DNA of 27,289 nucleotides, taken from positions 1 through 27,289 of IMG/VR virus record IMGVR_UViG_3300020438_000220. One strand, 5' to 3'. Each line of letters opens with the position of its first letter. Within the stretch, counting starts at the first letter, position 1. The position numbers were made by a program, and so were the translations under genes. The notes beneath the pieces were generated by a model that saw nothing but the letters and a program-made list of their open reading frames with translations, searched no databases and was not told where the DNA came from. Below, in pieces: positions 193 through 20,846 of the stretch. Source of the DNA: a virus.

Positions 193-2190
193 TTAAGGGG
201 AGTATCCTCCACCAACACCAGAAGAAGGGGCGGGTGTAGTAGTAGTCGTAGCGCTTTCGCCGCCACCGGGATCGCTTGGGTCATCACCACCCGGATCGCC
301 CGGACCTTCTGTGGTGGTTGTGCTATCATCGCCCGGATCGTCCGGACCTTCTGTGGTGGTTGTGTCATCACCGCCCGGATCGTCCGGACCTTCTGTGGTG
401 GTTGTGCTATCATCGCTCGTTCCGCAAGGACTTGAGTCACACGAAACATCTTTGTGCCACTGCGCTTCACAGCCAGCGCCATCAATCATCTCCCAACAAC
501 CTGCTCCACAGTTAGAGTTTGTCACATCGTCAGTGCAACCCCACTCTCCGTATACTGTATTGTCTGGCCACCCGCTGAAACTTCGTACACAGCAAGCTCC
601 GAGTCCCTCACTATTGGCGCAACATGGACAGTCGGTATCAGTTGCTGTAACTGACCACTTTCTGCTTGGAGGCCCGGCACAAGCGCCTAGAGCGTCCGGA
701 TTCTGTGATTCGTCGTTTGTGAAGGTGCCTTGACAAGTCTCAAGAGAATGAGACCAACGTTCAGGATCATCTGCTAACTTAGAGCCATCGCAAGTAATTA
801 TCACCGTCCACTCGTCCCCACACTCAGCAGCTCCCGTTTTTGTGTATGTAACGGTTTGAGTGCAGCTTGTAACATTTTCGTCTGCGGCCACATAGACACC
901 ACCATCGGTAAAAATGTAATCGCAATCACCACTTACACCAAGGCCAAACTTCAAGTACGCTGTGTCTGGACATTGACAAGGGCAAGCTGTAGTAGTAATC
1001 TCAGGAGGGGAGAGGGTAGTAGTAGTCGAGAAAGGAGCAGGAGTCGTAGTTGGGGCCGAAGTAGTAGTCGTTGTCGTTGGGGGAGCCGAAGTAGTTGTAG
1101 TAGTTGTACCTGCGCAAGGTTCATAAAGCTCTGGGCAGCAACAGCAACAGCCAACAGGGGCGTTGCAAAATACCTCTACCACACTGCCATCAAAAGTGCT
1201 ACAGCACTCCAGTCTCTCTCCGGATTCCTCAACCATTTTGCACCCACCAACCTCAAGACAAAAAACATCACCACTGGTTGTTTTTCCACAGTTTTCAAGA
1301 GGTCCATTTAAGCAATCCGGACAGTCTGGGGCTATCGTAGTGGTAGTTGTAGTTGGGGCCGAAGTAGTAGTCGTTGTCGATGAGCAGTCAAGATCACCGC
1401 ATGAAGCGCCTTGATGAAACTTGTGTTCTATATTTTGACACGAACCTCTTGTTCGAGAATCTTCGCAACCTTGATAACCTCCACCGGGGTTGAAGCTACA
1501 ACAGGCTCCTACACATGGACTATTTCCAGCAGCGTTGCAAGATGTTTCTAAACAAACTCCACCAATAGCTTCACAAGAGGCGCAATCTAGAGCGTCAACA
1601 CAATCAGCTCCAAGGCAACAACCAATTGGAGGAAGAGTAGTAGTGGTAGGGCAGGGTAGGGAAACGCATAAATTAGAGCCTAACGCCCAGTCAGAACTTT
1701 CTGTACAATCTCCCTGTACCATGCAGTCAGCAAAGGTCATGTTCTCAACACACCTATAATACTTGCCGTTAGCGCCAGTTCTGCATATACAACATCTTCC
1801 AAGCGGAGCGGAAGTCGTAGTCGCTGCCGGAACGCAGTTAGTGTTACAATCAGCGATATTGCTAAACAAGCTAATAGCATTAGTGCTAGTAAATCCGGCG
1901 GCGATACAATCTTGTAATCTTTCGTCTGGATGACCGTCGTCTACTATACATCCCAGCTTAGTTGATGCGCCTGTAACTGGATTGTCGTATCGGCAGCACA
2001 CGACAGGTTCTGCATCAGGACAAGTAATCTGAGCGCACGTCTGATTAAGAAAAAAACTAGAACATTCTTTTACTAGGCAATCTCCGGGAGTAAGATAATC
2101 TGTGCAGGTAGAGGTGCCGCAATCGTGGCAGCAAGCTCCTGAAGGTGCTGGTGGAGGTGTAACTCCATCGCATTGACAGCACTGTGTCAT
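193..2190 (-). CDS. Cys-rich, Thr-rich modular fibre-like protein
   Basis: 665 residues starting with MTQCCQCDG, with AGGAG about 9 nt upstream of the ATG. The protein alternates small cysteine-dense modules (each opening with a GACC/RCC/GCC-type motif and holding 6-8 cysteines) with threonine-proline linkers such as TTTTTTSAP. The C-terminal 70 residues are a low-complexity tail with repeats of STTTTEGPDDPGGDD type. The modules look disulphide-bonded or metal-binding and the linkers look like extended stalks, so a virion-surface fibre or decoration fits. It lies after two fibre genes in the late block. No enzymatic domain is visible. Similar GACC-type repeats occur in secreted bacterial proteins, including planctomycete ones, but this does not settle the host. 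The structural role is inferred from context and composition. Confidence 0.75.
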   Translation of the reverse strand: MTQCCQCDGVTPPPAPSGACCHDCGTSTCTDYLTPGDCLVKECSSFFLNQTCAQITCPDAEPVVCCRYDNPVTGASTKLGCIVDDGHPDERLQDCIAAGFTSTNAISLFSNIADCNTNCVPAATTTSAPLGRCCICRTGANGKYYRCVENMTFADCMVQGDCTESSDWALGSNLCVSLPCPTTTTLPPIGCCLGADCVDALDCASCEAIGGVCLETSCNAAGNSPCVGACCSFNPGGGYQGCEDSRTRGSCQNIEHKFHQGASCGDLDCSSTTTTTSAPTTTTTTIAPDCPDCLNGPLENCGKTTSGDVFCLEVGGCKMVEESGERLECCSTFDGSVVEVFCNAPVGCCCCCPELYEPCAGTTTTTTSAPPTTTTTTSAPTTTPAPFSTTTTLSPPEITTTACPCQCPDTAYLKFGLGVSGDCDYIFTDGGVYVAADENVTSCTQTVTYTKTGAAECGDEWTVIITCDGSKLADDPERWSHSLETCQGTFTNDESQNPDALGACAGPPSRKWSVTATDTDCPCCANSEGLGACCVRSFSGWPDNTVYGEWGCTDDVTNSNCGAGCWEMIDGAGCEAQWHKDVSCDSSPCGTSDDSTTTTEGPDDPGGDDTTTTEGPDDPGDDSTTTTEGPGDPGGDDPSDPGGGESATTTTTPAPSSGVGGGYSP
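281..409. repeat. Tandem repeat inside the Cys/Thr-rich gene (45/39/45 bp units)
   Basis: Three near-identical units at 281-325, 326-364 and 365-409. Each ends in a block containing CGGACCTTCTGTGGTGGTTG. They encode the acidic STTTTEGPDDPG repeats near the C-terminus. The middle unit is 6 bp shorter but keeps the frame, as expected if unit number changes by slippage or recombination. Confidence 0.9.
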
Positions 2191-12361: not shown

Positions 12362-14338
12362 TTAGTATAATTCTTGGGCGCCGTCTGTAAACCAGTTCGG
12401 ACCAGAGTATAGATCTCCTTTTTTATCAGTCTTGTCCACTGTAGCAAAACCTCCATAGAATTTGTACTCTTCTGGACTGGGCATCCTAGCCAAAGTTCTG
12501 GCCGCCATGTTAGCCATGATTAAAGAAGAATAGCGGTCTTTTCTCAACTTACCTTTTTTACCTGTACCTATCACCGTTTCAGGGGTATCCCACTTGTCTC
12601 TTCCTGTGGCGGTCTGTGTTATCTGTATCATAGTTAATTCGTCCTTAAGATCCTCTATCTCCATGACACATTGTTCTAAGGTGTCGTAAGTTCTACCTTT
12701 TAGTCCGTCTTCCGCATTTGCTATACCTAAGCTAACGGTATCAAACATTGGAAAAAGTAAAACCTTGTCTTCAAAGTCCTTTCTTAGACCATGATTGGCC
12801 TCTGCTAACCAGTCATACTTTGAAAACTGACACATTTCTAGAATATGTAGCCCTCTGTGATCATCGGTATCTTTTGCCTTATCATCGTCTATAACTGGCC
12901 ATATTGCGAATTCTCCTTCTTTTATCTTATCTTTATCGTGAAGAGATTCCATGACAGCTATACCACCGCCTCCAGCATCCATAGATATGTGGATACAAGG
13001 GAAAATTCTCATAAGGTCTCTAATTTTTCTAGCGCAATATGCATAAAAATCTGTCTCGCTTGAGTATCCGCTCTTAACCTTTTCTTTGTGTTGTTCACGG
13101 TTTGTTGTCCAGCAATGTACTATTCTTCTGTGGTCTGGATTAACTTCAAGTACTACAATGCTAAAATTATCTACCTCAGACGCTGGGTCAACGCCAAATA
13201 TATACTGCTTCTTAGGATCTCCCCTTAACTGTGCCTGAAAACATATCTCTTTATCATCTGAGTCTTTTAAGTCCCCACCCTCTCTTGTTACACAGCTTTC
13301 AATTAACGTACGCTTAAAGAAGCCCTGAGAATCGCGTGTAAAGCACGCTCCAAACTCCATCTGGTATATTCCAGCGTGGACAGTCGCTTTCGATCTGGCG
13401 ACCTGTGAGGCGTCCATAAAGCCTTCTGGTAGTAACTCGTAAGGAACTCTGATTATTGAGTAGTCTTTCCAGTTAAAGTCTTTTGGCGCGTCCTCTCCAA
13501 ATATCTCTCTTAACCTACTAGCTTTTCCTTGACTTCTAATTATGGACTTCCATTTTTTCCAGTACTCTGCAAAATGGTTAAAATCGTAGTAAGCGGTTCC
13601 AGACAAAATAATTTGGTTGTCTCTCTTTTTTACTATATCTTTGCTTTCTTCTTCAATATCTAGTCCTAGCTCTTTAGCTTTTTTCTTTGCCGCAATTTTC
13701 TTTACGTTTTCTATAGGATCAGAGCTAACAGCAGCAAAACCAGCAACAACTGTTTCAAAGATATCTCTAGGAATAGAAGCAAATTCATCGCTAATAATAT
13801 CATTAGCTCTCTGGCCTCTAATTTTTTGTCCGTCGCCCAGAGGGAGGCAAGTGACGCGAGACTTATTGATACGCATAACGCAGCGGTCAACATCTCTTCT
13901 TGGTCCACTACTTGCATCGCACATACTCCTTAGAATTGGTGCGTTATTCCATATTGTCTCCATGTACTCAAAGAGAACCTTAGATTGTCTAAAGGCAGCT
14001 CCAACAACGACTACTTTTCTTTCTGGTAGAATTAAAGCTCTTATCATGGCATACAGTGAAAGAATAAAAGACTTTCCGAATCCACGACTGGCAATAAGCA
14101 TTGGGAACTTTCTATTCCACATCTCGCATAAAAACAAGGCTTGCGAAGGTAATATATTTATATTAAAAATATGCTTACAAAGGAATGAGAAATATTCAGG
14201 CTTAGTCATTAACCAAAGGACTCTATACTGTACATCGTCCCCATTAAAATTAACAATATCAAAAGGGTTAACTAATTCTGAATCTTCTAGATCGTCTAAG
14301 TTCAACCAAGCTTCATCTAGCTTTTTTAGTTTGCTCAT
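12362..14338 (-). CDS. Terminase large subunit (ATPase and nuclease)
   Basis: 658 residues. Walker A is MLIASRGFGKS (residues 80-90), with the Arg/Gly-rich P-loop typical of terminases. Walker B with the catalytic acid is IISDEFA (Asp184, Glu185). The C-terminal RNase H-like nuclease shows its first acidic strand at IFGVDPASEVDNFSIVVLE and a second at HISMDAGGGG. It packages genomic DNA into proheads with ATP and cuts concatemers. Its ATG overlaps the stop of the ClpP-like gene by 4 bp (ATGA), implying translational coupling. Length fits the family. No intein or frameshift is visible. Confidence 0.93.
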   Translation of the reverse strand: MSKLKKLDEAWLNLDDLEDSELVNPFDIVNFNGDDVQYRVLWLMTKPEYFSFLCKHIFNINILPSQALFLCEMWNRKFPMLIASRGFGKSFILSLYAMIRALILPERKVVVVGAAFRQSKVLFEYMETIWNNAPILRSMCDASSGPRRDVDRCVMRINKSRVTCLPLGDGQKIRGQRANDIISDEFASIPRDIFETVVAGFAAVSSDPIENVKKIAAKKKAKELGLDIEEESKDIVKKRDNQIILSGTAYYDFNHFAEYWKKWKSIIRSQGKASRLREIFGEDAPKDFNWKDYSIIRVPYELLPEGFMDASQVARSKATVHAGIYQMEFGACFTRDSQGFFKRTLIESCVTREGGDLKDSDDKEICFQAQLRGDPKKQYIFGVDPASEVDNFSIVVLEVNPDHRRIVHCWTTNREQHKEKVKSGYSSETDFYAYCARKIRDLMRIFPCIHISMDAGGGGIAVMESLHDKDKIKEGEFAIWPVIDDDKAKDTDDHRGLHILEMCQFSKYDWLAEANHGLRKDFEDKVLLFPMFDTVSLGIANAEDGLKGRTYDTLEQCVMEIEDLKDELTMIQITQTATGRDKWDTPETVIGTGKKGKLRKDRYSSLIMANMAARTLARMPSPEEYKFYGGFATVDKTDKKGDLYSGPNWFTDGAQELY

Positions 14339-18842: not shown

Positions 18843-19625
18843 TTAGTCCTCTGTTTTTATCTTTCTCCACTTAGCTCCGTCATAAAATTCAAGAGAATTT
18901 GAGGATGAGTTGAAGATTATCGTTCCTTGTTCTTTATTTCTAGGTTTTCTAGGGCTAGCTTTAAGTACAATATGTGATAATAATAGTTTAGATTTACTAT
19001 TTGTTAGTTCAACATAGTCTGAAGATATTAAAATAGGGTCATTATTATTATATAAAGACTTAACAACGTAGTCTGGAGATAGTATAAGAGATATCTCGTC
19101 AGAATTTAGAGACTGAACCTCTCCTTCTAGTCTTCCTAAGAGGGAATTTTCTTCTAGTTCTATAGGTGAGGGCGATAATTCGTCTGTACTACATAAAATA
19201 GAGTGTTTTCTGTAGAATAAATCTATATAATTGGTAGGTATATAAGAACCAATGACAGTATAGGTGTTATCTGGTAGTTCAAAGAAGCCATTTTTATCTA
19301 CTGGTGTTTCCTGACCTTGTTCGTCTGTGGATAGGGCGACTTCTCTGATTAAAATCAGATCCTTTCCTACCTTTTTAACGTGTGCAACGCCTTTTTCTTG
19401 TCTGTTAAGCTTTCTAGAATTTATATCTGTGCTATCGAAAGTTTCTAACGTATAGAAAAAGCTTGTATCTTCATCAAATATACGTCTTAAACTGTCTTCT
19501 TCTTGGATGTATCCCGTAAAGTGACTTCCTGTATGTTTGAATTGATCAACATCAAGAAGTTTTATGACATCGTTATTTGTGACACCGGGGCTTACGACAA
19601 AATTTTTGTTACGTATCTTTGCCAT
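18843..19625 (-). CDS. Structural-type protein with fibre-like C-terminal tag
   Basis: 260 residues, not recognised as a whole. It is mixed beta, with long Ser/Asn/Asp-rich segments and no membrane segment. The C-terminus GTIIFNSSSNSLEFYDGAKW resembles the GTIxYNTTTNxLxxYDGxxW motif seen at the ends of many phage fibre and structural proteins. This suggests a virion or tail-associated protein. Translation starts at ATG 19625 inside the end of the preceding small gene (17-bp overlap). The ribosome site is weak (AGAGGA about 13 nt upstream), so coupling is likely. Confidence 0.6.
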   Translation of the reverse strand: MAKIRNKNFVVSPGVTNNDVIKLLDVDQFKHTGSHFTGYIQEEDSLRRIFDEDTSFFYTLETFDSTDINSRKLNRQEKGVAHVKKVGKDLILIREVALSTDEQGQETPVDKNGFFELPDNTYTVIGSYIPTNYIDLFYRKHSILCSTDELSPSPIELEENSLLGRLEGEVQSLNSDEISLILSPDYVVKSLYNNNDPILISSDYVELTNSKSKLLLSHIVLKASPRKPRNKEQGTIIFNSSSNSLEFYDGAKWRKIKTED

Positions 19626-19797
19626 TATCTAGTAATTCCTCTATTGGTTTATCCTGATCATTCAATTCTTCCTGTACCTCTGCGTTTAGGGCAGCAGTTG
19701 CCTTGCAATCTAGATCTACTTCTATTGTTGTTCCGCTATCACCTTTGGGGTGATGTGATTTTTTTTCTGTTTTTATTTTCTTCCATTGTTCTGACAT
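19609..19797 (-). CDS. Hypothetical protein, 62 aa, first gene of the late block
   Basis: Not recognised. 62 residues, very hydrophilic, with a basic N-terminus MSEQWKKIKTEKKSHHPKG and an acidic C-terminal helix (VQEELNDQDKPIEELLDNG). AAAGGAGAAT precedes the ATG, an excellent ribosome site. A near copy of the late promoter motif (GTGTATTAT, 19826-19834) lies 29 nt upstream, so this is probably the first gene of the long late message. Its first residues QWKKIKTE echo KWRKIKTE at the very end of the next protein. Confidence 0.65.
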   Translation of the reverse strand: MSEQWKKIKTEKKSHHPKGDSGTTIEVDLDCKATAALNAEVQEELNDQDKPIEELLDNGKDT

Positions 19798-19825
19798 TGT
19801 ATTCTCCTTTCACGAGTACACTATA

Positions 19826-19834
19826 TAATACACA
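19826..19834 (-). promoter_or_regulatory. Putative late promoter, GTGTATTAT variant
   Basis: One mismatch from the GTGTATAAT 9-mer (minus strand), 29 nt upstream of the first late gene. It is the only candidate found for the head of the long packaging message. Confidence 0.45.
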
Positions 19835-19861
19835 GCAAGAGCATTTTCTCCAAAAAGTAAT

Positions 19862-19889
19862 TTGAATATTGTGTGAAAACAGCTATAAT
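19862..19889 (+). promoter_or_regulatory. Promoter TTGAAT-N16-TATAAT for a candidate ncRNA
   Basis: TTGAAT at 19862-19867 and a perfect TATAAT at 19884-19889, with a 16-bp spacer. The expected start is A19896, which is also the first base of a perfect AGATTA/TAATCT hairpin. No plus-strand gene follows for about 750 bp. Confidence 0.55.
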
Positions 19890-19895
19890 AAGGGA

Positions 19896-20317
19896 GATTA
19901 ATGGTTGAAAAGTAATCTAATTCAGTGAATATTTGTATAAATCCGTTAAACGGGGCTGTGGTATCGAGTCCAAGTCCAACTGAAAAGTAAGTTACCTGAG
20001 AGTGTCCAAGCGCTCCAAGGTTAGGCAAAATTGAAATCTAGGCAATGTCCCACCATGACAACCTAGTACCTGTGAAGAGCCTGAGAGGGCCAAGTTGTAT
20101 TTTTGAATTATTAGCATTGAAGACCTAACTGCTTACTGACCCAACCAAGTACCTGTTGTATTCTTCACAGGTATAAATGGTCTTGGTCCGTCTATAGGGT
20201 ACGATAGATTCTGTCTGGGGCGATCTACTAATTACATTTTCTTTTTACTAGTGTAGATTAGGTAAGACACCCCTTAGATTTTGTCCGCATTGCGTATGAA
20301 CCACCCTTGCTTTTTTT
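19896..20317 (+). ncRNA. Candidate large structured RNA with pseudoknot
   Basis: About 420 nt without a convincing plus-strand gene. Complementary segments: AGATTA 19896-19901 with TAATCT 19913-19918; TTCAGT 19921-19926 with ACTGAA 19979-19984, enclosing CCGT/ACGG at 19943-19953. Next is a two-part hairpin, CTAGG/CCTAG plus TGTC/GACA, at 20038-20066. A perfect 12-bp helix, TACCTGTGAAGA 20067-20078 with TCTTCACAGGTA 20162-20173, follows without a gap. TCTAT pairs ATAGA at 20191-20208, and GATCTAC 20222-20228 pairs GTAGATT 20253-20259. GGGCCAAG 20087-20094, inside the 12-bp helix loop, can pair with CTTGGTCC 20182-20189 outside it, a pseudoknot. Two helices use G-U pairs that would be A-C on the minus strand, favouring plus. 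A T7 run at 20311-20317 could end it. No known RNA class is recognised. Confidence 0.5.
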
Positions 20318-20385
20318 CTCTGTTCAGTTGAGTTTTTTCGTGAAGATAAAACCCCCACCCTATACAAACGGCATTGGGCTGCCCG

Positions 20386-20426
20386 AATCGCCCTAAGTCG
20401 TTGGTATCAAAGGGTTTACGTCGATT
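20386..20426 (+). repeat. Intergenic hairpin element, copy 1
   Basis: First of five copies. AATCG (20386-20390) pairs with CGATT (20422-20426), enclosing the core CTAAGTC...GGGTTTACG. GGGCTGCC precedes it at 20376-20383 and AAGAGAAAA follows, as in other copies. It lies between the candidate RNA and the first early promoter. Confidence 0.75.
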
Positions 20427-20479
20427 AAGAGAAAAGATAAGAAACTTTCGTAAAATTATAGAATTATAGTATAGTGGGG

Positions 20480-20508
20480 TTGACAAAACAGCCGATATAT
20501 ATTATAAT
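20480..20508 (+). promoter_or_regulatory. Early promoter TTGACA-N17-TATAAT
   Basis: Perfect sigma70 hexamers with GCCGATA in the spacer. It is the first of two tandem promoters before the early block; no gene lies between them. Confidence 0.9.
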
Positions 20509-20586
20509 GGGAAGCAGTTAAGAAGTTAATAACAATCGGCAACAATAACAAGTTAAAAAAACTTTCAGAATAATTAAAGATTGTAC

Positions 20587-20615
20587 TTGACAACAGCCGA
20601 TAAGTATAGTATAAT
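20587..20615 (+). promoter_or_regulatory. Early promoter TTGACA-N17-TATAAT
   Basis: Perfect hexamers, with GCCGATA in the spacer. It is followed by the A/C-rich leader AACAAGTTAACAACACAACG and the 62-aa gene. Confidence 0.9.
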
Positions 20616-20657
20616 AAGAACATAACAAGTTAACAACACAACGAAAGAGAGAATACA

Positions 20658-20846
20658 ATGAACGTTATTAAAATTGGAAACAAGAGCGAAGCTAAACTAA
20701 AGTTGTTCACGATTGATCGTCGTATCGAAAAGAAGATACAACAACACGTTAACGAACTAGGTCAACACAATACAGCTATCGTCGAAGCTGAATTAGAAAA
20801 GCTTTGGGCAATGAAAAGTATTTTGGTTAATTTTATAAATAGTTAA
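20658..20846 (+). CDS. Early hypothetical protein, 62 aa
   Basis: Not recognised. 62 residues, basic (Lys/Arg-rich), mostly helical: IGNKSEAKLKLFTIDRRIEK, then a helix with heptad-like spacing ending in VEAELEKLWAMKSILVNFIN. It is the first gene of the plus-strand block, behind two tandem consensus promoters, so among the first phage products made. GAGAGA lies 5-6 nt before the ATG. Small, charged, strongly transcribed early proteins of phages often bind host enzymes, but nothing in the sequence names a target. Confidence 0.7.
   Translation: MNVIKIGNKSEAKLKLFTIDRRIEKKIQQHVNELGQHNTAIVEAELEKLWAMKSILVNFINS

Follow-up and report, generated by a model that had tools for sequence, protein, structure and literature searches.

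A predicted structured RNA of a new family between the late and early genes of uncultured phages

The divergent spacer and its promoter

The window, by which we mean the whole stretch of 27,289 nucleotides analysed here, is a 27.3-kb fragment from the virus record of an uncultured phage. Its late block lies on the minus strand, includes the terminase gene (12362-14338) and starts with an open reading frame (ORF) of 62 amino acids whose start codon is at 19797, while the early genes run on the plus strand from 20658. The divergent spacer that a first-pass annotation had described between these blocks is indeed there (19798-20657), and the promoter that it had named was found within it:

19862-19889, plus strand: promoter TTGAAT-N16-TATAAT, recognized by sequence match and by the spacing of the -10 box across relatives

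In most relatives, the -10 box lies 16-17 nt upstream of an ATGG in the loop of the hairpin H1 (see below), and it is usually accompanied by a TTG-type -35 box. Since the distance from the -10 box to H1 is nearly fixed, transcription is predicted to start at H1.

Several other features were seen on either side of this region. Perfect consensus promoters (TTGACA-N17-TATAAT) are present at 20480-20508 and 20587-20615 and are repeated through the early block; such promoters also occur at many sites in related early regions, and they share the motif GCCGATA inside their spacers. Inverted repeats flank ACGACTTACGTC at about 20380-20430 in the window and also in relatives, between the 3′ element described below and the first early promoter, and they are possible candidates for protein-binding or replication sites. 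In the late block, a protein of 665 amino acids (193-2190, minus strand) carries long Thr/Pro-rich repeats and many cysteines.

Comparative evidence for a structured RNA and the fold of its core

The first-pass annotation had proposed that the spacer harbors a large structured phage RNA, transcribed from the plus strand and outside the standard classes. Folding of the single sequence gave a z score of -1.20 for the plus strand, where 12 of 100 shuffles folded equally well, and of 0.17 for the minus strand. The folding energy thus is not unusual, such that one sequence alone could not decide the case.

Relatives were collected by a search of viral contigs with the terminase (TerL) protein, which yielded 80 loci; a neighboring protein of 260 amino acids found no relatives in the same contigs. 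Comparison of the spacer with the 80 terminase loci gave long matches of 60-77% identity, many of them interrupted by an insertion near window position 20200. Further contigs were recruited with a conserved 19-base motif, and a profile search resulted in 59 loci, of which 39 were distinct. Once sequences of a second, paralogous copy (see below) had been added, 45 sequences were aligned with a covariance model at E values from 2e-15 to 2e-67. This model has 282 positions and omits the pseudoknots, a full-length model being too large to calibrate. All relatives belong to a single lineage of uncultured phages. No credible match to the RNA was found in 50,697 GenBank phage records and 72,556 plasmid records, and when 84,980 species genomes of bacteria and archaea were scanned for a motif, the two hits matched the motif only and were judged to be due to chance.

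The alignments support a pseudoknotted fold, though it must be kept in mind for the following pair counts that the structure model was derived from the same sequences: a 69-pair model with 36 sequences has 94.4% of its cells paired and two-sided changes in 50 pairs, and a 61-pair model with 45 sequences, paralogues included, has 96.7% of its cells paired and two-sided changes in 47 of the 61 pairs. The covariation score of the latter is 0.467, as compared to 0.178 for shuffled sequences and less than 0.08 when the pairing partners are slid. Shared ancestry was controlled for with structure-free alignments simulated on the tree (GTR+G), a procedure that only approximates R-scape. In the 45-sequence set, 19 column pairs exceeded every value in 100 such simulations, and 18 of them are base pairs of the model, the remaining one being an off-by-one neighbor in H5. 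At the level of whole helices (30-sequence set), H1, H2, Hx, H4, P3b, H6 and PK1 exceeded 60 simulations. The covariation across relatives that had been proposed as a check is strong in every core helix, H5 included, under this phylogenetic null. The comparative evidence for an RNA hence lies far beyond chance, unlike that from energy alone, and in most helices the covariation goes beyond phylogeny, as expected of a new conserved structured RNA family.

The choice of strand, which had been read from the wobble pairs of one sequence, holds across the 45 sequences, where G-U occurs in 198 cells and A-C in 15. A protein-coding explanation finds no support: no reading frame is conserved in the spacer, a stop-free frame was found only once when a coding frame was sought in 35 sequences, and the length differences are not multiples of three. 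With respect to known classes, Rfam 15 gave no match at the gathering level for the window, none in a permissive search of 19600-20700 and none at the loci of the second copy, and neither Rfam nor ARAGORN matched the spacer RNA to tmRNA, RNase P RNA or SRP RNA. Literature searches, which reached only a minority of subscription papers and preprints, found no description of it, so that an earlier report is possible. As judged by sequence comparison, then, the spacer encodes a structured RNA of approximately 290 nt that constitutes a new, previously uncatalogued family, and the first-pass proposal is borne out by the covariation, the lack of a conserved frame and the lack of an Rfam match.

We refer to this RNA as type A and to its copy at the late/early junction as copy 1. 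The predicted elements of its core are as follows, with covariation in each of the helices from PK1 to H6:

19896-20190, plus strand: conserved RNA core of type A copy 1, about 290 nt; the 3′ end is approximate and lies after GGTATAAATGGTCTTGGT
19896-19917, plus strand: hairpin H1, stem 19896-19900/19913-19917, two-sided changes in five of five pairs
19902-20147, plus strand: pseudoknot PK1, H1 loop 19902-19908 with 20141-20147
19921-19984, plus strand: H2 domain, outer stem 19921-19924/19981-19984 and hairpin 19953-19961/19969-19977
19986-20137, plus strand: helix Hx, 19986-19992/20131-20137, which closes the central domain
20000-20015, plus strand: hairpin H4, 20000-20004/20011-20015
20019-20130, plus strand: helix P3b, 20019-20025/20124-20130, nested in Hx
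20038-20066, plus strand: hairpin H5, 20038-20042/20062-20066, inner stem 20046-20049/20057-20060
20067-20173, plus strand: helix H6, 20067-20078/20162-20173, a long-range pseudoknot that crosses Hx and P3b
20079-20090, plus strand: variable hairpin directly 3′ of the 5′ strand of H6, with a GNRA loop in the window and about one third of relatives

From 5′ to 3′, the core thus consists of H1, the H2 domain, Hx with H4 and P3b inside, H5, the 5′ strand of H6 and the variable hairpin, followed by the 3′ strands of P3b and Hx, the partner of PK1, the 3′ strand of H6 and the nearly invariant GGTATAAATGGTCTTGGT; the core of the paralogue ends in a similar way. Many unpaired bases are invariant. The PK1 pairing is GGUUG/CAACC in the window and GGUUAU/AUAACC or GGUAGU/ACUACC in others. 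The perfect 12-bp helix with an 83-nt interior that had been picked out from the single sequence is genuine and corresponds to H6, whereas the 8-bp pseudoknot proposed at 20087-20094/20182-20189 is confined to the window: its 5′ strand overlaps the variable hairpin, and the complementarity is lost in relatives. PK1 and Hx had not been on that first list. A further candidate helix, H7 (20120-20123/20181-20184), was rejected, as it is nearly invariant in copy 1 and lost in the second copy.

The insertion site, the 3′ element and other RNAs of the lineage

Two further features follow the core:

20191-20260, plus strand: variable insertion site 3′ of the core, 59-1466 nt in relatives and often occupied by a cargo ORF on the plus strand that has a Shine-Dalgarno sequence
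20261-20352, no strand assigned: separate conserved 3′ element, composed of GGTAAGACA (20261-20269), GAACCACC (20298-20305), 36 variable nt and GAAGATAAAAC (20342-20352)

In most relatives that lack cargo, the site measures 59-116 nt, and elsewhere it can reach 1466 nt; the window copy has no cargo ORF. The cargo encodes endonuclease VII/HNH-like nucleases, UDP-glucose dehydrogenases, a KdsB-like protein (CMP-KDO synthetase-like cytidylyltransferase) or an acetyltransferase (loci L004, L016, L104, L075, L106, L092, L026, L018, L024, L100, L123, L098, L073 and L040), and insertions of nuclease and other genes are tolerated at this position behind copy 1. The presence of a KdsB-like enzyme is suggestive of a Gram-negative host. 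At L040, a decayed nuclease fragment has apparently been retained.

In the 3′ element, the 36-nt spacing of GAACCACC-N36-GAAGATAAAAC is kept in nearly all cases, while the sequence in between varies. The run of seven T residues that had been noted at the end is present at 20311-20317, but it lies in the 36 variable nt of this separate element, which is also found without the RNA. A hairpin in the element was considered, but it has mismatches in the window and displays no covariation. Candidates for the role of the element are a DNA site (packaging or origin) and an RNA terminator-like structure.

The 3′ element was found in 40 viral contigs (e.g., loci L143-L170), many of them without type A RNA. 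Such loci have either no RNA, with the start of the late gene about 240-350 nt away, or a type B RNA. Type B is a different conserved structured RNA of about 430 nt at the same locus, with 130 predicted pairs and two-sided changes in 35 pairs among eight sequences (on the minus strand of L048:1750-2100, L059:1130-1500, L034:2040-2440, L079, L158 and others). It has no match in Rfam, its search of GenBank phages gave one short and weak match, and type A genomes were not found to contain it as an additional RNA.

A second copy of the type A RNA was found in each of the four records that extend far enough downstream (G002, G003, G007 and G013), in the same orientation as the first and 20-28 kb from it. 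Copy 2 is a downstream paralogue that forms a separate branch of the tree and retains H1, PK1 (GGUAGU/ACUACC), Hx, P3b and H6, in which compensating changes are seen. Of its six occurrences, four start 3-80 nt past a tRNA-Leu(UAA) gene; the fifth is located in a tRNA/tmRNA island, and the sixth (L141) has no tRNA nearby. No tRNA was found near copy 1. At the copy 2 loci that were read, neither a cargo ORF nor the 3′ element lies directly behind the RNA, and the following gene is preceded by a promoter of its own. In 14 records without copy 1 (type B, RNA-less or chance-match; fragments of up to 136 kb), no copy was found. The tRNA islands that hold copy 2 include tmRNA genes at L135:5585-5901 and L137:9712-10033 (both minus strand), and the one in L135 matches the permuted tmRNA family.

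Possible functions and relation to known RNAs

We consider it likely that the spacer RNA represents a new family of structured RNAs that stand alone and act in trans. A discrete RNA acting in trans provides the best fit, because it has its own promoter, a complex fold and a tRNA-linked paralogue, but no fixed downstream gene. The host sigma-70-type RNA polymerase would transcribe it rightward from the promoter at 19862-19889, and the core of about 290 nt would fold compactly into a doubly pseudoknotted structure, with the H1 loop pairing to 20141-20147 and H6 reaching across Hx and P3b. The RNA may then accumulate as a discrete species during infection and act in trans, either by itself or in a particle with protein, with translation or host takeover as its probable field of action. 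This field is suggested by the position of copy 2 behind tRNA-Leu, within islands that contain tRNAs and, in some cases, a tmRNA. More tentatively, and with a good deal less confidence, one could envisage that the two paralogues, of which copy 1 lies at the late/early junction under its own promoter and copy 2 next to tRNA-Leu, assemble jointly or singly into a particle that acts on the host translation machinery, and that they are replaceable at the same locus by a type B RNA with an equivalent job; copy 2 would then probably be matured from the tRNA-Leu transcript in some genomes.

By context and style, GOLLD and ROOL are the nearest analogues of the spacer RNA. These are large, multiply pseudoknotted RNAs of phages and prophages that are often found near tRNA genes and that form RNA-only cages of unknown function (PMC12286853; PMC7567579). 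The spacer RNA likewise is phage-encoded and pseudoknotted, and five of the six instances of its copy 2 are adjacent to tRNA-Leu or part of a tRNA island. However, GOLLD and ROOL measure 600-800 nt or more, as compared to the core of about 290 nt, and the spacer RNA has two paralogues per genome and a cargo site behind copy 1. Membership in either family was rejected, since their covariance models match neither the window, nor 19600-20700 under permissive settings, nor the copy 2 loci. Another comparison is offered by the abundant noncoding RNA of phage ICP1, which is about 800 nt long, whose expression was measured by RNA-seq and which resembles our case as a long ORF-less phage region adjoining a functional gene cluster (PMC7567579). 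Among the GenBank phages, the spacer RNA had no match.

An alternative that we regard as unlikely is a cis-acting leader, i.e., a riboswitch or attenuator that controls the gene directly downstream. The cargo ORFs, many of which have a Shine-Dalgarno sequence, share the strand of the core and begin about 20-60 nt past it, and the transcript of copy 1 could continue into them. Furthermore, a middle strand at about 20150-20156 may compete with the 5′ strand of H6 for the same 3′ strand in a switch-like manner; the competing local hairpin beats shuffles in 12 of 45 sequences at the 5% level, which is only suggestive, given that it is weak (median rank 0.095) and that the sequences are related. 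A role in cis is less likely because the cargo genes are mutually unrelated or missing, and the genes after copy 2 differ and carry their own promoters.

Still less probable is a ribozyme, or what is left of a self-splicing intron that carried a homing-endonuclease ORF in one of its loops, even though the double pseudoknot, the many invariant unpaired bases and the HNH/endonuclease VII-like ORFs at one site would be in keeping with it. Phage group I introns are similar in that a structured, pseudoknotted RNA is joined to nuclease ORFs located at a single tolerant site, but the spacer RNA has no exons, its cargo commonly is not a nuclease (KdsB-like, UDP-glucose dehydrogenase and acetyltransferase genes) and copy 2 has no ORF. 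The promoter directly precedes the first hairpin, which leaves no room for a 5′ exon, and the permissive Rfam search returned no ribozyme or intron. The HEARO/IscB omega RNAs also have an HNH-nuclease ORF downstream of a structured RNA, as do some relatives here, but the nuclease cargo of the spacer RNA is endonuclease VII/HNH-like and is exchangeable with metabolic genes or absent; no Rfam match and no IscB-type protein were found.

We give little credence to a packaging or motor RNA like the pRNA of phi29. The RNA does adjoin the late block with its packaging and structural genes, and the neighboring 3′ element with its rigid geometry could be a packaging site, but a second copy lies 20-28 kb away, and relatives that lack the RNA, or carry another one, share both the terminase family and the 3′ element. 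That the region is a conserved DNA element (origin, regulatory or recombination region) rather than an RNA is hardly credible, despite its location between divergent blocks and a neighboring 3′ element that behaves like a spaced DNA motif, in view of compensatory changes in a pseudoknotted pairing, the large excess of G-U over A-C and the paralogue behind a tRNA.

The trans-acting RNA that we favor bears on a long-standing puzzle, namely that GOLLD and ROOL are elaborate, sometimes abundant phage RNAs without a known job. To these, the new family adds a smaller core, strong covariation, a clear strand and a likely start site, and its two paralogues per long-enough record, one of them usually tRNA-linked, offer a tangible starting point for work on function. 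A natural comparison set is available in the relatives, some of which have the RNA, some another RNA in its place and some no RNA. On the terminase tree, these three locus states require 3 changes, as compared to 15.7 with shuffled labels, which argues for predominantly vertical inheritance of the RNA, with a few instances of replacement or loss.
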